A stretch of DNA of 64,000 nt from the NCBI RefSeq assembly GCF_001190925.1, contig NZ_CP011072.1:1-64000 (forward strand), read 5' to 3'. The number at the start of each line of letters is the position of its first letter. The first letter of the stretch is position 1. The DNA is from Azoarcus sp. CIB (lineage in GTDB: Bacteria > Pseudomonadota > Gammaproteobacteria > Burkholderiales > Rhodocyclaceae). Shown piece by piece: positions 1 through 37,689 of this stretch. A program made the position numbers and the translations under genes. The notes below the pieces were generated by a model. It was not told the origin of the DNA. It did no database searches and was given only the letters and a program-made list of their open reading frames with translations.

Positions 1-1455
1 GTGTCACAAGCCCTAACCATCGAGTCCGTGAGTCAAGATTTTTGGTCCTTCTGCCTGTCGCGCCTTGAGAGTGAGCTGCCCCCGCAGCAGTTCAACACAT
101 GGATCAAGACGCTGCGTGCCGAGGCCGGCACGAGCGAAGAACCGTCGCTGCGCCTGTTCGCCCCCAACCGTTTCGTCATGCAGTGGGTGCGCGAACGCTA
201 CCTCAAGCGCATCGCCGAGCTCGGCGAGGAATTCCACGGCGGCCCGCTGCTGCTCGAACTCGTGATGGCCGAAGCGGGCAGCGCGCGCACGGCCGCGCGC
301 CCCGTCGCCCCCGTCATGCCGGTCGCATCGGAAGGCGCAGCCGCGAACGCCACCCCCGCGCCCATCGCCGCCCCCGCCATCATCACGCGCCCCGAACCCG
401 AGCCCGCGATCACCTCGGCCGACCTCGCCTACGAGAAGACGCGCCTCAACCCGGACTTCACCTTCGACACGCTGGTCACCGGCCGCGCCAACGACCTCGC
501 ACGCGCCGCCGCGATGCAGGTCGCGCAGAACCCCGGCACGTCCTACAACCCGCTGTTCGTCTACGGCGGCGTCGGCCTCGGCAAGACCCACCTGGTGCAC
601 GCCATCGGCAACGCCGTGTATCGGCGCAACCCGCGTGCGGTGATCCGCTATGTCCACGTCGAGGACTACTACGCCGACGTCGTGCGCGCCTACCAGCAGA
701 AGAGCTTCGACGCGTTCAAGCGCTACTACCGCTCGCTCGACCTGCTGCTGATCGACGACATCCAGTTCTTCAACAACAAGAACCGCACGCAGGAAGAATT
801 CTTCCACGCCTTCAACGCGCTGACCGAGGCACGCAAGCAGATCGTCATCACCTGCGACACCTACCCGAAGGACATCCAGGGCCTCGAAGACCGTCTCATC
901 TCGCGCTTCGACTGGGGCCTCACGGTACAGATCGAGCCGCCCGAGCTCGAGATGCGCGTCGCGATCCTGCAGAAGAAGGCCGAGGCGCTGCGCGTCGATC
1001 TGCACGACGACGTCGCCTTCCTGATCGCCAAGAACCTGCGCTCCAACGTGCGCGAGCTCGAAGGCGCGTTGAACAAGGTCGTCGCCTTCGCGCGCTTCCA
1101 CGGTCGCGGCATCTCGCTGGAAGTCGCCAAGGACGCGCTGAAGGATCTGCTCAACGCGCACAACCGCCAGCTCACCATCGAGCACATCCAGAAGACGGTC
1201 GCCGACTACTACAAGATCAAGGTCGCCGACATGCACTCGAAGAAGCGCACGCGCGTCATCGCGCGGCCGCGCCAGGTCGCGATGTGGCTCGCGAAGGACC
1301 TCACGCCGATGTCGCTGCCGGCGATCGGCGAGGCCTTCGGCGGACGCGACCACACCACCGTGCTGCACGCCTGCCGCACCATCGCGGACCTGCGCCTCGG
1401 AGACCAGCAGCTCAACCACGACGTGCACGTGCTCACGCAGGTGCTGCGCGGATGA
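1..1455 (+). CDS. dnaA: Chromosomal replication initiator DnaA
   Basis: DnaA is the AAA+ ATPase that binds 9-mer DnaA boxes and opens the replication origin. The 484-residue protein shows the usual order: an N-terminal helicase-loading domain (about 1-85), a variable Pro/Ala-rich linker (about 90-140), and the AAA+ core with Walker [10 protein letters not shown] near residue 190 and Walker [10 protein letters not shown] near 250. The C-terminal DNA-binding domain contains the signature [11 protein letters not shown] near 450. The start codon is GTG at the first base of the window, so upstream promoter or origin sequence cannot be seen. dnaN follows after 68 bp and gyrB after that, the common bacterial dnaA-dnaN-gyrB order (recF is absent). 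Length is normal for the family. Confidence 0.98.
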
Positions 1456-1523
1456 GCGCTCCCCGCAGCACCGCTTCCCTGCCCGGACAAACGGAATAAT
1501 TTCAAACGGAAGATCCTGACGCC

Positions 1524-2630
1524 ATGCTTCTGCTCACCACCACCCGCGATGCGCTCCTCGCCCCGCTGCAGTCGGTCGCCGGCATCGTCGAAAAGCGCCA
1601 CACCCTGCCGATCCTGTCGAACGTGCTGATCGAGAAGCACGGCGACCAGCTCACCCTGCTCGCCACCGACATCGAGATCCAGATCCGCACGACTACGGGC
1701 GGGCACATCGGCGGCGAGGACGCGTCCATCACCGTCGCGGCGAAGAAGCTGCAGGACATCTTGCGCGCGCTGCCCTCCGAGGGCGAGGTGGTGCTCACGC
1801 TCGACGACAAGCGCCTCACCGTGAAGGCCGGCCGCAGCCGCTTCGCGCTGCAGACGCTGCCCGCCGCCGACTACCCGCGCATGAACCTGCCCGACGGCGA
1901 CGCCACGCGCTTCAGCACCAGCCAGAAGAGCTTCAAGCGCCAGCTCGCGCAGGTCGCCTACGCGATGGCGCAGCAGGACATCCGCTACTACCTCAACGGC
2001 CTGCTGCTGATCGCCGACGGCAAGGAACTGCGCATGGTCGCGACCGACGGCCACCGCCTCGCGTTCGCCTCCAGCCCGCTCGAGGCCGAAGTGCCGCGCA
2101 CCGATGTCATCCTGCCGCGCAAGACGGTCATGGAACTCGCGCGCCAGCTCGCCGACAGCGAAGATCCGCTCGAAGTCGTCCTCGCCGGCAACCAGGTGGT
2201 GTTCCGCTTCGGCCCGATCGAGCTCGTCTCCAAGCTCATCGACGGCAAGTTCCCCGACTACGAGCGCGTCATCCCGCAGAACCACCAGAAGCTGCTGACC
2301 TTCGAGCGCACCCCGCTGCTCGCGACCCTGTCGCGCGTCGCGATCCTGACCAACGACAAGTTCCGCGGCGTGCGCCTCGTGCTCGGCGACGGCACGCTGA
2401 AGATCGCCAGCACCAACGCCGAACAGGAAGAAGCCCAGGAAGAGCTGGAAGTCGACTACCACGACGCCCCGCTCGACATCGGCTTCAACGTCACCTACCT
2501 GCTCGACGTGCTCACCAATACCCACGAAGACCAGGTCGAGTGGCGCTTCAACGACGGCAACTCCAGCGCGCTGGTGACCCTGCCGGGCAATGACCGCTTC
2601 AAGTACGTGGTCATGCCGATGCGCATCTGA
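1524..2630 (+). CDS. dnaN: DNA polymerase III beta sliding clamp
   Basis: DnaN forms the ring-shaped dimeric clamp that tethers DNA polymerase III to DNA. The protein has 368 residues, the normal family length. It starts MLLLTTTRDALLAPLQ and ends in the typical C-terminal motif VVMPMRI, which forms part of the partner-binding region. It lies 68 bp downstream of dnaA on the same strand, and co-transcription is likely. A GC-rich hairpin follows the stop codon before gyrB. Confidence 0.98.
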   Translation: MLLLTTTRDALLAPLQSVAGIVEKRHTLPILSNVLIEKHGDQLTLLATDIEIQIRTTTGGHIGGEDASITVAAKKLQDILRALPSEGEVVLTLDDKRLTVKAGRSRFALQTLPAADYPRMNLPDGDATRFSTSQKSFKRQLAQVAYAMAQQDIRYYLNGLLLIADGKELRMVATDGHRLAFASSPLEAEVPRTDVILPRKTVMELARQLADSEDPLEVVLAGNQVVFRFGPIELVSKLIDGKFPDYERVIPQNHQKLLTFERTPLLATLSRVAILTNDKFRGVRLVLGDGTLKIASTNAEQEEAQEELEVDYHDAPLDIGFNVTYLLDVLTNTHEDQVEWRFNDGNSSALVTLPGNDRFKYVVMPMRI

Positions 2631-2663
2631 CGCGAGCCGGCGCCCGCCGCCGCCGCGTTCTGA

Positions 2664-2693
2664 CGCCCCGGGACCTCCCGGGGCGCGTTCTTT
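2664..2693 (+). terminator. Intrinsic terminator candidate after dnaN
   Basis: A perfect 10-bp stem, CGCCCCGGGA with TCCCGGGGCG, closes a 2-nt CC loop and is followed by CGTTCTTT. The T tract is short, so termination may be partial and gyrB may be partly co-transcribed with dnaA-dnaN. Confidence 0.6.
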
Positions 2694-2705
2694 GATGATT
2701 CATAG

Positions 2706-5222
<2,517 letters not shown>

Positions 5223-26367: not shown

Positions 26368-27336
26368 TCAGAACGGCGCGTCGCTCGCGGCCTCGGTGGC
26401 GAACGCGACACCCCCCGTGGCCGCCGGCGCCTCGCCGCCCTTGAGTTCGCCGCCCAGCGCCGCGACGACGGCCGGCAGCAGGCGCTGCAGCTCGCCGGTC
26501 ATCAGCGCGAAGCCCGCGTCGAACAGCGCGCGCGCGTCCTCCGCGCCCTGCTGGTCGAGGTTTTCCTTCACGACGTCGAGGAAATCCAGGCGCTTGATCT
26601 CGAATTTCTCGGTCAGCACGAAGCTCACGTGCTCGTCGAAGGTCAGCGCGAGACGGGTCGGCAGCTTGCCGGCGGTCAGGTGGCCGCGCACCTCGTCGCC
26701 TTCGAGCGGATGACGCACGTAGCGCACCGCGGCCTTGTCCTCGGTGACCGAACGCAGTTCGCAGTCCTGGTCGATCGTGAAGCCGGCGGGCGCCTCGCCG
26801 CCCGCGAGCCAGTCGGCCATCGCGCTGGTCGGCGACAGCTCCGTGCGCACCAGCGCGAGCGGCAGGGTGTCGAGAGTCTGGCGCAATACCTCCAGGACGT
26901 CCTCTGCACGGGCCTGGCTGGGCGCATCGATACCCAGCCACCCCCCGACAGGGTCGATCCAGGCGAAGGCCTTCCTGCGCCGTGTAAACGCGCGCGGCAG
27001 CAATTCCTGCAAAACCTGCTCGCGCAGATCCTTCATCTGCTTGCGCCCGGGCTTGTAGCCCTGCTGCTCGGCCAGCGCCTCGGCGCGTTCCTCGGCCTCC
27101 TGCTTGACCACCGACGAGGGCAGCAGCTTGTGCTCCACCCCCAGCGCGATCAGCCACTGGCCGCCGACGCGGTGCACGAGGAATTCGTCACCGGTGGGCG
27201 AGAGCCAGCCGCGGGTTTCCTGGTCCTGGCTGCCGCAGGGCACGAAGCGCTTGCGTGCGAGCTGTTCCTCCAGGGCTTCGGCCGTCATCGTCCAGCCGGC
27301 GGGAACGCGATAGATCTGCAGGTTCTTGAACCACAT
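26368..27336 (-). CDS. rdgC: Recombination-associated protein RdgC
   Basis: RdgC is a ring-forming, nonspecific DNA-binding protein that modulates RecA. The 322-residue sequence begins MWFKNLQIYRVPAGW, the family's N-terminal signature, and continues with VPCGSQDQETRGWLSP and DLREQVLQELLPRAFTRRRKAFAWID. Near the C-terminus, VSFVLTEKFEIKRLDFLDVV is characteristic. The 3' end lies one base past the convergent c-di-GMP gene stop. Length is slightly above the usual 300. Confidence 0.95.
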   Translation of the reverse strand: MWFKNLQIYRVPAGWTMTAEALEEQLARKRFVPCGSQDQETRGWLSPTGDEFLVHRVGGQWLIALGVEHKLLPSSVVKQEAEERAEALAEQQGYKPGRKQMKDLREQVLQELLPRAFTRRRKAFAWIDPVGGWLGIDAPSQARAEDVLEVLRQTLDTLPLALVRTELSPTSAMADWLAGGEAPAGFTIDQDCELRSVTEDKAAVRYVRHPLEGDEVRGHLTAGKLPTRLALTFDEHVSFVLTEKFEIKRLDFLDVVKENLDQQGAEDARALFDAGFALMTGELQRLLPAVVAALGGELKGGEAPAATGGVAFATEAASDAPF

Positions 27337-27940: not shown

Positions 27941-28657
27941 ATGCAAATCGAACGACTACTCCATTCCCAGGGGTTCGGCAGCCGCAAGGAATGCCGCGCC
28001 CTGATCCGTGCCGGCCTGGTCGCTGTCGCAGGCCGGATCCTCGATAACCCCGCCGAAGAGTTCGCGCCCGAGGGGCTCGAATTCAGCGTAGACGACGAAA
28101 CCTGGGTCTATCGCGAACAGGCCTACCTGATGCTGCACAAGCCCGCCGGCTATGAGTGCTCGCGTCATCCCCAGTTCCACCCCTCGGTGTTCGCGCTGCT
28201 GCCCGACATGCTGGCGAACCGCGACGTGCAGTGCGTCGGGCGGCTGGACCAGGACACCACCGGCCTGCTGCTGCTCTCCGACGACGGTCAGTTCATCCAC
28301 CGCTGGAGCTCGGGCAAGAAGCGCACGCCCAAGGTCTATGAGGTCACGATCAAGCATCCGGTCGACGATGCGCTGGTCGCGGCCCTGCTCGCGGGGGTCG
28401 AGCTCGTCGACGAACCGGCGCCGATCGCCGCGGCGGCCTGTCTGCAAACGGGGGAGCGGAGTCTAAGGCTCACGATCACCGAAGGCAAGTACCATCAGGT
28501 CAAGCGCATGCTCGCCGCAGCGGGCAACCGCGTCGAAGCCCTGCATCGCAGCGTCGTCGGCGGACTGGTCCTGCCCGGGGATCTCGCACCGGGCGAATGG
28601 TGTTGGCTCGACGAAGCCGACCTCACCCAACTCGCCACGTATTCCGAAGAAGCCTGA
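27941..28657 (+). CDS. rsuA: 16S rRNA pseudouridine synthase RsuA family
   Basis: This 238-residue enzyme isomerises a uridine in 16S rRNA (U516 in E. coli). An N-terminal S4-like RNA-binding region (MQIERLLHSQGFGSRKECRALIRAGLV) precedes the catalytic domain. The catalytic Asp is in VGRLDQDTTGLLLLSDDGQFIH, and GKYHQVKRMLAAAGNRVEALHR is the C-terminal motif. The ATG at 27941 agrees with family starts. It is divergent from the SRPBCC gene and is followed by a 950-bp gene-free region with origin-like features. Confidence 0.92.
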   Translation: MQIERLLHSQGFGSRKECRALIRAGLVAVAGRILDNPAEEFAPEGLEFSVDDETWVYREQAYLMLHKPAGYECSRHPQFHPSVFALLPDMLANRDVQCVGRLDQDTTGLLLLSDDGQFIHRWSSGKKRTPKVYEVTIKHPVDDALVAALLAGVELVDEPAPIAAAACLQTGERSLRLTITEGKYHQVKRMLAAAGNRVEALHRSVVGGLVLPGDLAPGEWCWLDEADLTQLATYSEEA

Positions 28658-28820: not shown

Positions 28821-29040
28821 GTATTTATTTAAATTTAAAAGATAAAGAAGAAGATATAGGACAAATTTCTGTGGATAAGCGCTGATCACCCAATGCCTGT
28901 GCTGCTTTCAGCGTTGTAGAACCCCGTAGACAAGTGCCCGGTTCACCTGTGCACCGAATGTGACCCGTTTCGAGGGTCCGGGATTTTTCGGTCCTTGCCC
29001 ACAAAGTGTCCCAGTGCTCCTCCCGGACTTATCCACTGCG
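28821..29040. other. Origin-like unit A: AT-rich tract plus DnaA-box-like 9-mers
   Basis: A 40-base AT-rich stretch (28821-28860, with TTTAAATTTAAAAGATAAAG) is followed by a perfect DnaA box TGTGGATAA (28870-28878). Three weaker ones follow: CGTAGACAA (28925), TTGCCCACA (28995) and TTATCCACT (29029, 8 of 9). A block GGTTCACCTGTG is at 28940. Every one of these recurs at the same offset in unit B, 569 bp downstream. The architecture of a melting region next to boxes is that of a bacterial replication origin. Its function as an origin is inferred. Confidence 0.7.
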
Positions 29041-29389
29041 GAGTCGGTTTCGGAGACGGAACGGCCACGGTCGTCCTGCCGGCTGAATGCGGTCAAGGCC
29101 GAGCTTCTACCGTGGGACCATCCCGGTGCAGTTGTCGCAAGATCGCGCACGCGTCTCGTTTGCGTAGGGTGATGCAACGCTCGAACGCAACGCGCGGCTA
29201 AATCCGCTTTCACTGCCAAGTCCGCTGCGAGGTACGCCGAGTCGTAGGGCGGGAGTAGCCGAAGGCGCATCCCGCCATTCCTCGTCTATCGTGCCTCGCA
29301 CGTCAGCTTGGCGGGATACGCTGCGCTGCTCCCGCCCTACGAACGTTCGTGCGATTGCCTTGACGCCGTTGTTTAGGGTTTTGCTTTTA
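29041..29389. other. Spacer between the two origin-like units
   Basis: This 349-bp gene-free spacer holds the REP-like element (29242-29342) and, touching its right end, the 12-bp palindrome ACGAACGTTCGT (29339-29350). I see no coding frame with a ribosome binding site and no perfect DnaA box in it. Confidence 0.6.
29242..29342. repeat. REP-like palindromic element between the origin-like units
   Basis: Perfect 14-bp outer arms (TCGTAGGGCGGGAG and its complement) enclose imperfect inner arms CATCCCGCC/GGCGGGATA. It shares the GTAGGGCGG start and AGCCGAAGGCG motif with the element at 19682-19778, so both belong to one dispersed family. Confidence 0.8.
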
Positions 29390-29609
29390 GTATTTAGTTT
29401 TAATTAAAAGATAAAGATATATATAGTGTCGCGTTTTCTGTGGATAAGTCCCGCTTCGCCTGTGCCTGCGGGCACTCCGGGACGGTAAAAGTCCGTAGAT
29501 AAGCCCCGGGTTCACCTGTGTGTCGATTGTGTCCAGTTTTCCGGTCCATTCCGATCCAGCCCTTTTCCCACAAAGCATTCACGCCCTTTTCCCGTACTTG
29601 TCCACTGCC
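29390..29609. other. Origin-like unit B: AT-rich tract plus DnaA-box-like 9-mers
   Basis: This unit repeats unit A at an exact 569-bp offset. It has an AT-rich tract with TTTTAATTAAAAGATAAAGA, a perfect TGTGGATAA (29439-29447), CGTAGATAA (29494), GGTTCACCTGTG (29509), TTTCCCACA (29564) and TTGTCCACT (29598). It ends at the earP start codon, so it also contains the earP promoter region. Between the conserved blocks the two units differ strongly. A further perfect box in the same orientation lies within earP at 29663-29671. Confidence 0.7.
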
Positions 29610-30773
29610 ATGAGCCCTTCCGACGCCTCGTCCGTCTTCGACTGGGACATCTTCTGCCGGGTTGTGGATAACTTCGGGGATATCGGCGTCTGTTGGCGGC
29701 TTGCCAAGGCATTGGCGCATGACCAGGGGTGCTCGGTCAGGCTGTGGGTGGACGACTGGACGACCTTCGCTCGCCTGTGTCCGGCCGCGGGGGAAACGGG
29801 CGATTCGCTGCGCGCGGAGGGCGTCGAAGTGCGTCGCTGGTGCGAACACTTTCCCGACGTGCTGCCGGCGCGTGCGGTTGTCGAGGCCTTCGCCTGCGAG
29901 CCGCCCGCGTCCTACGTCGAGGCGATGGCGGCCGTTACGCCGCCGCCGCAGTGGATCAACCTCGAATACCTGTCGGCCGAGGACTGGGTCGAGGCCTGCC
30001 ATGGGCTGACGTCGCCGCATCCGCGCCTGCCGCTGACCAAGCGTTTCTGCTTTCCCGGCTTCACGCCGCGCACCGGCGGCCTGTTGCGCGAAAAGGGCCT
30101 GATCGCGACGCGCGAGCGTTTTCAGGCCGATGCGGCAGCGCGGCGCGACTGGCTCGCCGGCCTCGGCATCCCGGCGGTGCCGGAGGGCGCGCGCCTCGTG
30201 TCGCTGTTCGCCTACGAGCAGCGGCAGCTGCCGGAACTGCTGCGCCTGTGGGCCGACGCGCCGCGCCCGACCCTGCTGCTGGTGCCGGAAGGCCGCGTGC
30301 TGGGCGACGTGCTGCACTTCTTCGGGCGTGCCAACGCGCAGGCGGGCGAGATCCTGGCTGAGGGCGGATTGACGGCCGCGATCCTGCCCTTCCTCGACGT
30401 CGCCGACTACGACCGCCTGCTATGGGCGTGCGAGCTCAACTTCGTGCGTGGCGAGGATTCCTTCGTGCGCGCGCAGTGGGCCGCGCAGCCCTTCGTGTGG
30501 CACATCTACGAGCAGGACGAGGCGGTGCATCACGACAAGCTCGACGCCTTTCTCACCCGCTACCTTGTCGACCTCGACGCGCGGGCCGCGGAGGCGACGC
30601 GCGCGTTCTGGAAGGCGTGGAACGGCGAGGGGAGCCTTGCCGCCGCGTGGCCCGCGTTCGCCGATGCGCTGCCACGGCTTGCGCCGCACACGCGCTGCTG
30701 GTCGGACCGACTCGCGGGCCAGCAGGATCTCGCGTCGGCGCTGGTGCAATTTTCAGAACTAACGGTAAAATAA
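29610..30773 (+). CDS. earP: EF-P arginine rhamnosyltransferase EarP
   Basis: EarP transfers rhamnose from dTDP-L-rhamnose to a conserved arginine of elongation factor P, which lets EF-P rescue ribosomes stalled at polyproline. The 387-residue protein begins with [21 protein letters not shown] (about 11-31), containing the essential Asp residues. It continues with ASYVEAM and [21 protein letters not shown], and ends with the nucleotide-sugar site [33 protein letters not shown]. The ATG at 29610 gives the family-typical start. The target gene efp follows 58 bases later. The VVDN codons overlap a perfect DnaA-box sequence. Confidence 0.95.
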
Positions 30774-31935: not shown

Positions 31936-34900
31936 ATGTCCGACCGCATCCGCATCTTCGGCGCGCGCCAGAACAACCTCAAGAATCTCTCGCTCGACAT
32001 CGCGCTGAACGAGCTGACGGTCGTCACCGGAGTCTCGGGCTCCGGCAAATCCTCGCTGGTCTTCGACACGCTGTACGCCGAAGGCCAGCGCCGCTACGTC
32101 GAGACCTTCTCGCCGTACGCGCGGCAGTTCCTCGACCGCATGGACAAGCCGCAGGTCGACCGCATCGAAGGCGTGCCGCCGGCGATCGCGATCGACCAGA
32201 CCAACCCGGTGCGCACCTCGCGCTCGACGGTCGGCACGATGACCGAGCTGACCGACCACTTCAAGCTACTCTATGCGCGCGGGTCGAAACTCTATTGCCG
32301 CGGCTGCGGCAAGGCCGTGCGGCGCGACGATCCGGACAGCGTGCATGCGGCCCTGGCCGAACGCTGCGCGGTCGAGGATCCGCGCCTGGTGCTGACCTTC
32401 GCAGTGCCGGTGCCGAAGAACTTCAGCGAAGACGAAGTCACGCAACTGCTGAACCAGCAGGGCTACACGCGCATCCATGCGCGCGAGTCGACGGATGGGG
32501 GCGACCTGCTGCACGTCGTGCAGGACCGCTTCCGCTTCGCGAACGCCGAACGTAGTCGCGTCATCGAAGCCGTCGAGACCGCGATGGCGCGCGGCCACGG
32601 CAAGCTCGCGGTGCGCGCGCAGGGGGAGGGCGGCGAGCGCGTGTGGCGCTTTTCGCGCGACCTGCACTGCGCCGACTGCGACATCCACTATTCGGATCCG
32701 ACGCCGGGCCTGTTCTCGTTCAACTCGCCGATCGGCGCCTGCGACACCTGCCGCGGCTTCGGCCGCGTGATCGGCGTCGACTTCTCGCTGGTGATTCCGG
32801 ACGAATCGAAGACGCTCGCCGAAGGCGCCGTGAAACCCTGGCAGACCGCGAGCTATCGCGAATGCCAGGACGACCTCGCGAAGATGGCCAAGAAATACGG
32901 CGTCGCGATGGACGTTCCCTTCCGCGAGCTGCCGCCCGAGCACCGGCAATGGGTGCTCGAAGGCGACCCCGAGTGGAAGAGTTGGGAATCGTCGTGGCCG
33001 CGCAAGTGGTACGGCGTGCGCCATTTCTTCGACTGGCTGGAGAGCAAAGCCTACAAGATGCACATCCGCGTGCTGCTGTCGCGATACCGCAGCTACACGG
33101 AATGCCCCGCGTGCAAGGGCGCCAGGCTGAAGCCTGAAGCCCTGCTGTGGCGCCTGGGTCAAGAAACAAGGACCGAGACAGCGCCAGCCGACGAGAACAC
33201 CCCGCAAGGAGCCGCCGACGCGGGGGCTTTCGGGGCGAGGCGTCCGCCACGCGTCCAACGAGTCCCGGAAGCCCCCGCGTCGGCGGCGAATCGCAGCCCC
33301 GAAATCACCGCCAATAACAACCGCCCCGGCCTCGCCATCCACGAACTGATGGCCCAACCGGTGAGCCGCGTACGCGACTTCATCGCCCGCGTCGAACTCC
33401 CGTCCGGCCTCGATGAAGCCACCGAACTGCTGCTCGGCGAGATCCGCAGCCGCCTCGACTACCTCGCCAACGTCGGCCTCGCCTACCTCACGCTCGACCG
33501 CCAGTCGCGCACGCTCTCCGGCGGCGAAGTCCAGCGCATCAACCTCACCACCGCGCTAGGCACCTCGCTCGTGAACACCCTGTTCGTCCTCGACGAACCC
33601 TCTATCGGCCTCCATCCGCGCGACATCGACCGCATCCTCGCGGTGATGACGCGGCTGCGCGACGCCGGCAATACGCTGGTCGTCGTCGAACATGACCCGC
33701 AGCTGATGTCCGCCGCCGACCGCCTGCTCGACATCGGCCCTGGCCCCGGCGAACGCGGCGGGGAGATCGTCGCCTATGCCACGCCGGCCGAAATCGCCGC
33801 CGACCCCGCGTCGCTGACCGGCGCCTACCTCGCCGGGCGCAAGCGCGTCGACGCTGGCCGTCGCCTGCGCCCGGTCGCCGCCGAGGATCCCGTGTTGCGT
33901 CTCGTCGGCGCGTGTCAGCACAACCTGCGCGACGTCGATATCGCGATTCCGCTCGGTAAGCTCGTGTGCGTCTCCGGCGTGTCGGGTTCAGGCAAGTCCA
34001 GCCTGATCCAGGACGTCCTCTATCCCGCGCTCGCCAAACACTTCGGCCAGGCGAGCGAAGCACCCGGCGCGTTCTCGCGCCTCGAAGGGCTCGACCAGCT
34101 GGCGGGTGTCGTGATGGTCGACCAGTCCGCGATCGGCAAGAGCGCGCGCTCGAATCCGGTGAGCTACGTCGGTGCGTGGGACGCGATCCGCACCCTGTTC
34201 GCCGCGCTGCCCGAAGCCAAGACCCGCGGTTACACGCCCGGCACCTTCAGCTTCAACTCCGGCACCGGACGCTGCCCGACCTGCACCGGCTCGGGTTTCG
34301 AACACGTCGAGATGCAGTTCCTGTCCGACGTGTATTTGCGCTGCCCGGACTGCGACGGCAAGCGCTACCGGCCCGAAGTGCTGGAGCTGCAGTGGCGCGA
34401 CAAATCGGTATCGGACGTGCTCGAGATGACGGTATCGGAGGCGCTGGCCTTCTTCGCCGACCAGCCTGCCGTGCAGGCCGCGCTCGCGCCGCTCGCCGAC
34501 GTCGGCCTCGAATACCTGAAGCTCGGCCAGCCGGTGCCGACTTTGTCCGGCGGCGAAGCGCAGCGCCTGAAGCTCGCCGGCCACCTCGCCGAAGCGGCCA
34601 AACTCGCCGGGAAGAAGTCCAAATCCAAGGCCAATCCCGGTCGCCTGCTGTTCCTGTTCGACGAACCGACGACCGGCCTGCATTTCGAGGACGTCGCGAC
34701 GCTGCTGCGCGCCTTCGAGAAGCTGCTCGACGCCGGCCACGCGCTCGTCGTCATCGAGCACAACCTCGACGTGCTGCTCGCCGCCGACTGGATCCTCGAC
34801 CTCGGCCCCGAAGGCGGCGAGGCGGGTGGCGATCTGGTCGTCGCCGGCACGCCGCAAACCGTGATGGCCTGCGCCGCGTCGCACACGGGAAAAGCGCTTG

Positions 34901-37689
34901 CCGCCTACGCGGAGTCGCTCGGCAAGCCGGTGACGGCGGTCGCCGAACCCGTCGCGCGCTACCGCCCGGTCGCCGCACCGGTGATCGAGATCCGCCACGC
35001 GCGCGAACACAACCTGAAGAACGTCAGCCTGACGATCCCGCGCGACCGCTTCACGGTGATCACCGGCCTGTCCGGCTCGGGCAAATCGACCCTAGCCTTC
35101 GACATCGTCTTCGGTGAAGGCCAGCGCCGCTACCTCGAATCGCTGAACGCCTACGCGCGCCAGTTCGTGCAGCCGGCCGCGCGCCCCGACGTCGATGCGC
35201 TGTTCGGCATCCCGCCGACCGTCGCGATCGAGCAGCGCGTGAGCCGTGGCGGCCGCAAGAGCACGGTCGGTACGCTGACCGAGATCCAGCCCTTCCTGCG
35301 CCTGCTGTACGTCAAGCTCGGCACGCAGTACTGCCCGAAGTGCGACGTGCCGGTGTCGCCGCAGAGCTTCGACGCGATCGCGGCGCAGATCCTGCGCGAC
35401 TATCGCGGCGCGTCGGTGGAACTGCTCGCGCCGCTGGTCACGAACCGCAAGGGCCTGTACACCGCGCTGGCGAAATGGGCCAAAGGCAAGGGCTATGCGC
35501 AGCTGCGCGTCGACGGCGACTACCTGCCGACCGCGAAATGGCCGCGGCTGGACCGCTATGTCGAGCATACGATCGAGCTGCCGGTCGGCATGGCGGTGGT
35601 CGGGCCCGAGCATGAGGCGGCGTTGCGCACGCAGTTGACCGAAGCGTTGGAGCACGGCAAGGGCGTCGTCAAGGTGCTCGAGCTCGGCAAGGTCGGCGCG
35701 ACGCCGCACACCTTCTCGACGCTGCGCGCCTGTCCGTGCTGCGGCGACAGCTTCCCGGAACCCGATCCGCGCCTGTTCTCGTACAACGCCAAGCACGGCT
35801 GGTGTCCGAGCTGCTATGGCACGGGTCAGCGCACGATCGGCCGCGTCGAGGATGCGAACGAACTCGATCTCGCCGACACCGAACAGGTCACCGACGAAGT
35901 CTGCCCGTCCTGCGACGGTGCGCGCCTGAATCCGGTCGCGCGCGCGGTGCGATTCAGGGACCTGGGCATCCACGAGTTGTCCGCGCAACCGGTCGCGAAA
36001 GTGTCGGGGTTCTTCGACAGCCTGAAGCTGGAAGGCCGCGAGACCGACATCGGGCGCGACCTCGTCAGCGAGATCCGCGGCCGCCTCGACTTCCTGCAGC
36101 AGGTCGGCCTCGCCTACCTCGCGCTCGACCGCGGCGCGCCGACGCTCTCCGGCGGGGAGGCGCAGCGCATCCGCCTCGCCGCCCAGCTCGGCTCCAACCT
36201 GCGCGGCGTGTGCTACATCCTTGACGAGCCGACCATCGGCCTGCACCCGCGCGACAACCGCATGCTGCTCGATACGCTCGAAGCCCTGCGCGACCGCGGC
36301 AACACGCTGCTCGTCGTCGAGCACGACGAGGACACCATCCGCCGCGCCGACCACGTCATCGATCTCGGCCCAGGCGCCGGCGTGCGCGGCGGCGAGGTCG
36401 TCGCCGAAGGCACGCTGGCCGACCTGATGGCCGCGCCTGCCTCCGCGACCGGCGCGTGCTTCCGCGCGCCGCTGCAGCACCCGATGCGCCCGCCGCTGGC
36501 GATTGGCGACGACCACCCCTTCCTCGCCGTGCGCGACGCGACGCTGCACAACCTGCAGGCGGTGGATGCGCGCGTGCCGCTCGGCCGGCTCACGGTCGTC
36601 ACTGGCGTGTCCGGCTCGGGTAAATCGACGCTCGCGCGCGACGTGATCCATGCCAGCCTGCACGCGCTGCTCGGCGACCCGGATGCGCAGCGCGCCCGCC
36701 GTCGTGGCGAAGCGCAGACCAGCGCCGCCGAGGTCGTTGGCTGCGAGCGCATCGAAGGCTGGCAGGCCGTCGGCCGCGTGCTCGAGGTCGACCAGACCCC
36801 GATCGGCAAGACGCCGCGTTCCTGCCCCGCGACCTACGTCGGCTTCTGGGATGCGATCCGCAAGCTCTTCGCGGAGACTTTCGAGGCCAAGACGCGCGGC
36901 TGGAACGCGTCGCGCTTCTCCTTCAACACCGGCGCCGGCCGCTGCCCGGTGTGCGAGGGCCAGGGCCAGACCACCGTCGAGATGAGCTTCCTGCCCGACG
37001 TGAAGCTGCCCTGCGACGCCTGTGGCGGCGCGCGTTTCAACCCCGAGACGCTCTCCGTGCGGTGGCGCGACAAGAGCGTCGCCGAAGTGCTCGCGATGCC
37101 GGTCGACGAGGCCGTCGACTTCTTCGCCGCGCATCCGGCGATCGCGCATCCGCTGGCGCTGCTGCAGGACGTCGGACTGGGGTATCTCACGCTCGGCCAG
37201 CCCAGCCCGACGTTGTCGGGCGGCGAGGCGCAGCGCATCAAGCTCGTTACCGAACTCGCGAAGGTGCGCGGGCGGGCCGGCGAGTCGGCCGCGACGGGCG
37301 GCCGCCCGCTGCCCGCCGAAAAGCACACCCTGTACGTGCTCGACGAACCGACCGTGGGACTCCACATGGCCGACGTCGACAAGCTGATCCGCGTGCTGCA
37401 CCGTCTCGCCGACGCCGGCCACACCGTGCTCGCGATCGAGCACGACCTCGACGTCATGGCGGAGGCCGACTGGCTGATCGACCTCGGCCCGGAAGGCGGC
37501 GACGGCGGCGGACGCATCGTCGCGCAGGGGCCGGTCGCCGAGGTGTGCGCTACGCCTGGCTCGCACACCGCGCGCATCCTCGCGGAGTTTCTGGCCGCGC
37601 GGGCGCGTCCTTCAGGCGACGAAGGGTGCGGCGCTGCTGCCGCGCCCGTGCCGGTCCGTGGTGCGAAGGCGAAGAAGCGTCCTGGTTGA
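31936..37689 (+). CDS. uvrA: Double-length excinuclease ABC subunit UvrA
   Basis: UvrA recognises DNA damage in nucleotide excision repair and loads UvrB. This 1917-residue protein is about twice the usual 940 and contains two complete UvrA units, with the second starting near residue 1015. There are four Walker A motifs (GVSGSGKSS near 32 and 681, GLSGSGKST near 1043, GVSGSGKST near 1557) and four signature LSGGE motifs. Paired CxxC zinc sites recur, such as CPTCTGSG and CPVCEGQG. Double-length UvrA proteins are known in betaproteobacteria. Unusual here is an insertion of about 60 low-complexity residues near 403-463, which contains a palindromic DNA element. The start is close behind the lipoprotein gene. 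Confidence 0.93.
33211..33287. repeat. Palindromic element inside uvrA
   Basis: GCCGCCGACGCGGGGGCTT (33211-33229) and its exact complement (33269-33287) form 19-bp perfect arms around 39 bases. The element is read in frame and encodes part of a disordered-looking segment between the zinc motif [11 protein letters not shown] and [11 protein letters not shown]. This looks like a REP-type insertion that preserved the frame. Confidence 0.8.

Follow-up and report, generated by a model that had tools for sequence, protein, structure and literature searches.

Two tandem oriC-like modules between rsuA and earP as the probable chromosomal origin of replication of Azoarcus sp. CIB

Bacterial chromosomes are taught as having one origin of replication. 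In Escherichia coli this is oriC, located between mnmG and mioC, whose unwinding side adjoins the DnaA box R1 and which contains many GATC sites. DnaA boxes also occur in sites of the datA/DARS type, which have no unwinding element, and DnaA regulates genes. Bipartite origins are described, in the excerpted text of PMC4285127, as two box clusters, one of them with the DUE, usually split by dnaA (PMC4285127). The basal unwinding system consists, according to the excerpt of its description, of a DnaA box, a spacer of 0-16 bp and DnaA-trios (PMC8287927). Gao (2015) stated that at that time there was no evidence of two functional origins being used on one bacterial chromosome, and tabulated four putative double-origin genomes, together with that of M. 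bovis BCG, which arose by segment duplication (PMC4403523).

The window analysed here is the whole stretch of 64,000 nucleotides that forms bases 1-64000 of the single 5,257,030-bp contig of Azoarcus sp. CIB, numbered from dnaA. Between rsuA and earP it contains two 218-bp oriC-like modules, placed in the same orientation and 569 bp apart. The order in each of them is an AT tract, TTTCTGTGGATAAG (R1), CGTAGAYAA, GTTCACCTGTG, CCCACAAAG and, at the right end, TTRTCCAC. The features of the locus are listed below.

1..1455, forward strand: dnaA, 29 kb from the modules.
27941..28657, forward strand: rsuA-like pseudouridine synthase gene, left neighbour (PF00849 and S4; frame checked).
28821..29038, forward strand: unit 1, the upstream oriC-like module and added copy (profile match 152.7 bits; 11/17 genus genomes).
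28821..28862, forward strand: AT tract of unit 1, likely unwinding element (a 14-bp spacer and then six N-A-N triplets, in 3' to 5' reading away from R1).
28870..28878, reverse strand: R1 of unit 1, perfect DnaA box (TGTGGATAA on the forward strand).
28925..28951, forward strand: conserved middle blocks of unit 1 (CGTAGACAA at 28925-28933, GTTCACCTGTG at 28941-28951).
28995..29003, forward strand: weak box TTGCCCACA of unit 1, two mismatches.
29029..29037, forward strand: inverted box TTATCCACT at the right end of unit 1.
29242..29342, no strand: insertion between the units of a dispersed repeat, about 100 bp long and partly palindromic, with inverted arms and outside the origin proper.
29390..29607, forward strand: unit 2, the earP-side oriC-like module and ancestral core (profile match 175.3 bits; 17/17 genus genomes).
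29390..29428, forward strand: AT tract of unit 2, likely unwinding element (N-A-N triplets only after a 20-bp spacer).
29439..29447, reverse strand: R1 of unit 2, perfect DnaA box.
29494..29520, forward strand: middle blocks of unit 2, putative functional sites (CGTAGATAA at 29494-29502, GTTCACCTGTG at 29510-29520).
29564..29572, forward strand: weak box TTTCCCACA of unit 2.
29598..29606, forward strand: inverted box TTGTCCACT at the right end of unit 2.
29610..30773, forward strand: earP, EF-P rhamnosyltransferase gene, right neighbour (PF10093, 504 bits).
29663..29671, reverse strand: distal DnaA box, located within earP at 224 bp from R1 of unit 2 and preserved through rare synonymous codons.

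The middle blocks of unit 1 are possible weak DnaA sites or sites for a bending protein, a putative function only. The repeat between the units looks like a dispersed REP- or MITE-like element, and the genome-wide listing has 66 further matches, in which some places are counted on both strands.

As in E. coli oriC, the unwinding side lies beside R1, and R1 and the far box (R4) are inverted. These two boxes are 180 bp apart in E. coli and 159 bp apart here. Unlike E. coli oriC, the locus has two modules instead of one, other neighbour genes, and one GATC per module instead of many; the module profile produced only a partial match of 9.3 bits at the E. coli origin. The presence of two DnaA-box clusters close to each other is shared with the bipartite origins of Bacillus subtilis and Helicobacter pylori. 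In contrast to those, the two halves are copies of each other with dnaA far off, and no conserved gene lies between them, the spacer being 31% identical, although rdgC and rsuA do separate the modules in the inverted layouts of three genera (g27, g48 and g67). A further difference is that both halves carry a conserved and equally unstable AT tract, so that the predicted capacity for unwinding would not be limited to one of them. More than one origin-like region per chromosome is also a trait of the putative double origins of Gao 2015 (PMC4403523), but those are single genomes, none of this family, whereas here the pair is kept in 11 genomes of the genus and recurs in other genera.

The first-pass annotation had proposed a two-unit repeat at an offset of 569 with a shared set of 9-mers resembling DnaA boxes. 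All of these 9-mers were present in both units where it had placed them, and an offset of 569 gives 140 identical columns out of 225, versus 72 and 66 at offsets 568 and 570. The background identity of such 225-base pairs at sampled offsets has a mean of 63.5 (sd 8.6). Over offsets 225-1500, the best pairs in the window scored 141, 141 and 139; the module pair is among them, and the other two both fall within the uvrA frame at 31936-37689. The pattern TGTGGATAA-N138..165-TTRTCCAC has two matches in the 5,257,030-bp genome, both at this locus, and its reversed control has none in the whole genome. A module profile built from 27 sequences, both units here included, gave 175 and 153 bits for the units when run unfiltered over the window, with 3 bits for the next best match, and in the whole genome it found the same two modules and none besides. 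Two features by which an oriC is recognised are thus found at this place: the DnaA-box cluster is unique in the genome, and it is adjoined by the least stable AT-rich DNA, the two AT tracts being the two least stable 50-bp and 80-bp stretches in the 64-kb window.

In relatives, the boxes and AT tracts of the rsuA-earP gap are kept, in line with the same annotation, and the earP-side module was found in 17/17 genus genomes. Its R1 lies 224 bp from the TGTGGATAA in earP in 16 of these genomes and 225 bp in one. Unit 1 was found in 11 of the 17, on the same contig as unit 2 in ten of them; in the eleventh (G161) the modules are at the ends of two contigs and the genome is counted by inference. 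The other six have a single module (G044 and G100 by a profile search of the whole genome, four by the profile near earP and the strict pattern genome-wide). The named relatives by EarP, at 79-91% identity, are Azoarcus sp. Aa7 and five Aromatoleum species, and both modules are present in 5/6; for A. toluolicum one module was seen, on a stretch stopping at a contig end. Pseudothauera lacus has one module, and none was found in four Pseudomonas and two Massilia stretches.

Among eight core genomes, the mean pairwise identity is 83.8% for unit 1 and 86.5% for unit 2, against 31.2% for the spacer (192-411 bp); the 150 bp before unit 1 show 65.8%. In both units AAAAGATAAAG, R1, GTTCACCTGTG and the right-end box are nearly or fully invariant, and 14/14 columns of the AT tract are invariant in each. 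The offset of 569 bp itself, whose retention in related genomes had been suggested as a check, is not kept: it ranges from 410 to 629 bp in the eight core genomes, and is 357 bp in G155 and 618 bp in G152. The related idea that boxes and spacing are selected while the bases between them have diverged held in part, since the spacing within each module is kept, but the bases between the blocks are only partly free and the unconserved DNA is that between the modules.

Within one genome, unit 1 and unit 2 are 63-68% identical, and between genomes 65.6%. As the likeness within a genome is no higher than between genomes, the copy is old and each unit is under its own constraint; a check of the eight core genomes for homogenisation between the units gave no sign of it. 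These figures bear on the reading of unit 1 as a decaying leftover of a duplication. The R1 of unit 1 is damaged in G155, and the earP relic described below is degraded in G152 and not seen in core genomes, both of which would fit decay. However, unit 1 is far better conserved than the adjoining spacer and the copy has been kept in spite of its age. This explanation was therefore set aside as very unlikely.

Replication of this chromosome very probably begins at the rsuA-earP locus, far from the usual site. The claim that oriC lies there and not at dnaA was well supported, as skew minima track the module in three relatives. The 2 kb upstream of dnaA contain one lone perfect DnaA box, and no DnaA box with at most one mismatch was found at window positions 1400-2800. 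The place was examined in relatives in which the module lies 68-113 kb from dnaA (G067, G026 and G100), and in G157, a two-module member of the genus. In G067, from another genus and with the module about 108 kb from dnaA, the cumulative skew was computed over 360 contiguous kb. The G-C minimum, at 3,201,771, is 40 bp off the earP-side module (3,201,811-3,202,022), the keto minimum, at 3,203,590, lies between its two modules, and the T-A minimum is at 3,205,358. In G100, of the same genus, with one module about 68 kb from dnaA, the keto minimum at 1,924,505 is 131 bp off the module (1,924,160-1,924,374) and the G-C minimum is at 1,914,920; the T-A minimum at 1,881,266 is a misfit, 43 kb off the module and nearer dnaA. 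In G026, from another genus, the minima lie at 121.1-121.6 kb and the modules at 110.4 and 113.1 kb, with dnaA at base 1, which leaves a gap of 8-11 kb.

The skew analysis that had been suggested as a check was thus favourable in G067, in G100 (two of three measures) and in G026 (8-11 kb), while in the window genome and in G157 the noise is too great for the origin to be located by skew. In these two, the T-A minima at 37.5 and 49.0 kb are about 8 kb from the modules, and the G-C and keto minima are near 105 kb. The G-C minimum is at about 106 kb in the window genome and at about 104.5 kb in G157, some 65-75 kb from the modules. The dnaA gene coincided with the skew minimum in 0/5 genomes, on none of the three measures. 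No dif site was found in the genome with up to three mismatches to an E. coli-type consensus. Among the complete genomes of this layout that were placed, numbering that begins at dnaA shifts the origin from its place by 12 to 113 kb.

The two modules might instead be DnaA-regulated promoters of earP and rsuA, with the origin elsewhere. Unit 2 does directly precede earP and one box lies within the gene. Nevertheless, the skew minima in G067, G100 and G026 speak against a role as promoters, as do the presence of the same module in the dnaA-dnaN gap of other genera, whose earP has none, and the lack of any other module match in the genome. On these grounds the promoter-only reading was set aside, and we hold it to be very unlikely.

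The third perfect box that had been pointed out in earP (29663) is present, and is now understood as part of the origin module: on sequence grounds, it is a component of the origin. Its codons are GTT GTG GAT AAY (Val-Val-Asp-Asn), and in six window genes GTT accounts for 7 of 314 Val codons and GAT for 34 of 263 Asp codons. The perfect box is found in 17/17 genus genomes and at 19/23 loci of other genera with the module at earP, i.e. at 36/40 in total, the misses being L155, L170, L178 and L181. At L153, L154, L157 and L171 the first residue is Leu, through CTT, and the box is intact; loci with other residues were read by alignment and are included in the totals. With the module before rsuA, the earP box is perfect in 2/2. 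For comparison, earP was taken from 12 family genomes in which no module was found there, ten of which have the module at dnaA (it was not located in G007 and G120), and from six genomes of other families. All 18 lack a perfect box. Six of the 12 encode Val-Ile-Asp-Asn, with which the box spelling is impossible; the other six encode Val-Val-Asp-Asn, yet the perfect box occurs in 0/6. It is likewise absent from the six other-family genomes, L074 being one mismatch short.

In G152, a degenerate relic of the earP head around a box (L107, excluded from the 17), with 25/27 bases alike, comes after unit 1 at the same distance of 224 bp. This relic indicates that the beginning of earP was duplicated along with the module. 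Of the two units, the one beside earP is ancestral and the upstream one was added as a copy. In a tree of EarP, the two-module species form one clade (SH-aLRT 98); over 42 genomes, the label of one or two modules needs at least five changes, of which the well-supported branches force two. The module tree was computed on 213 columns, one sub-match in L147 being excluded, and as 36 of its 86 inner branches are open, only well-supported groups were used. One of these groups unites nine copies of unit 1, with a support of 100. The other, with a support of 98, consists of the two modules of G049, which are each other's nearest relatives and so point to a separate doubling. Against the simple picture, unit 1 of G152 and unit 1 of G155 fall outside the other nine. 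The number of independent doublings is something that we infer.

A profile search of 150 family genomes found at least one module in 63 and two in 20, from 11 genera, although absences mean little because the profile was trained on this genus and the filters were strict. The surroundings were examined in 43 of the 63. A local search repeated on 40 stretches of 39 genomes detected a second module in four more (G035, G074, G094 and G122), and the weakest second-module matches score 17-20 bits. The in-frame comparison of rsuA gave 55-76% identity at 21 of 40 loci. Tandem modules before earP are found in this genus and in g37 and g49, and the two-module origins of the family take five further layouts: one module on each side of rsuA (g34, g36), a module before earP with an inverted partner past rdgC (g27, g48, g67), a tandem in the dnaA-dnaN gap (g12, g8), two modules in tandem close to rdgC (g40), and the arrangement of G127, in which 24 kb separate a module in the dnaA-dnaN gap from another that directly follows rsuA (L163, L164). 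L183 and L184 were assigned to no layout. G127 is possibly a halfway state of origin relocation. The rdgC gene (26368-27336 in the window) is a neighbour of the origin here, as it is in many related layouts, and in the three genera with an inverted second module that module sits just past rdgC.

Taken together, these features suggest that the rsuA-earP gap is the chromosomal origin and is made of two complete tandem DnaA-dependent modules that act together and of which either tract can be opened. We consider this reading probable, with some reserve, as DnaA binding, opening and cooperation are what we infer for a locus whose place, duplication, conservation and skew in relatives were observed. 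Unit 2 is the old core. Its R1, its middle sites, its inverted box at the right end and the distal box in earP would all be bound by DnaA, which would melt the AT tract to the left of R1. A tandem duplication that included the head of earP gave rise to unit 1, and under selection this copy has since remained a complete second module that has an AT tract and an R1 of its own. DnaA would then assemble on both units, which would cooperate as a two-part origin. Several observations weigh against this reading: the noisy skew of the window genome and of G157, the T-A minimum of G100, the long spacer of unit 2, the damaged R1 of unit 1 in G155, the missing distal box of unit 1 in the core genomes, and the six genus genomes that have a single module.

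The DnaA-trio rule, for which the direction of reading the triplets is our own application of PMC8287927, separates the two units. Unit 1 resembles the basal unwinding system, as far as the excerpt of that source describes it, with a box, a 14-bp spacer and six N-A-N triplets; unit 2 is unlike it, as its 20-bp spacer exceeds the 0-16 bp given there. The rule was applied as at least three triplets within 16 bp of a DnaA box. No triplets start within 16 bp of R1 in unit 2 of this genome and four follow only after 20 bp; three triplets occur in 5/17 genomes. At least four triplets are present in unit 1 in 9/10 genomes, compared with 2.83/10 expected by shuffling. The more canonical run is therefore that of unit 1 (9/10 versus 0/17), which makes unit 1 more than a box cluster.

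The closest rival holds that unit 2 alone is the working origin and that unit 1 is a conserved DnaA-binding regulator, serving in local titration, timing or help with complex assembly and not itself opened. The distribution in the genus agrees with it, as unit 2 is universal there and unit 1 is not, and so do the missing distal box of unit 1 in all eight core genomes and its damaged R1 in G155. Known bipartite origins, in the excerpt cited, also have an unwinding element in one half only (PMC4285127). On the other hand, the AT tract of unit 1 is as strictly kept as that of unit 2 (14/14 columns) and as unstable, and unit 1 has the better trio run; a pure binding site would need none of these. 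Unit 1 also differs from sites of the datA/DARS type by retaining its AT tract. This rival is live, but we regard it as rather unlikely.

Under the preferred reading of two openable modules, the origin here has left dnaA, was doubled and has kept both copies, whereas known split origins have one opening site. Titles and abstracts on oriC in Azoarcus, Thauera, Rhodocyclaceae, Aromatoleum and Betaproteobacteria, on DnaA-trios and on duplicated or bipartite origins yielded no report of a doubled origin of this kind; the place of a single origin here may already be recorded in databases of predicted origins. A wider proposal is that, more than once in one betaproteobacterial family, a natural origin evolved in which two opening sites are complete and are conserved separately, and in which DnaA could melt either of them, while the position of the origin shifted between the dnaA-dnaN gap and the rdgC-rsuA-earP locus. 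It is put forward tentatively, as possible but a little short of probable. The sister species, some with one module and some with two, and the genera of other layouts offer natural experiments on how initiation is controlled, on its timing and on copy number.

Two further observations concern other genes. The UvrA reading frame at 31936-37689 of the window encodes 1917 residues and contains long internal DNA repeats at offsets 1119 and 1068. The usual length of UvrA is about half of this, and the frame perhaps consists of two fused copies. A second, weak DnaA-domain match with one stop in frame (L002, genome positions 2635442-2635756) is possibly an Hda-like gene or a relic.
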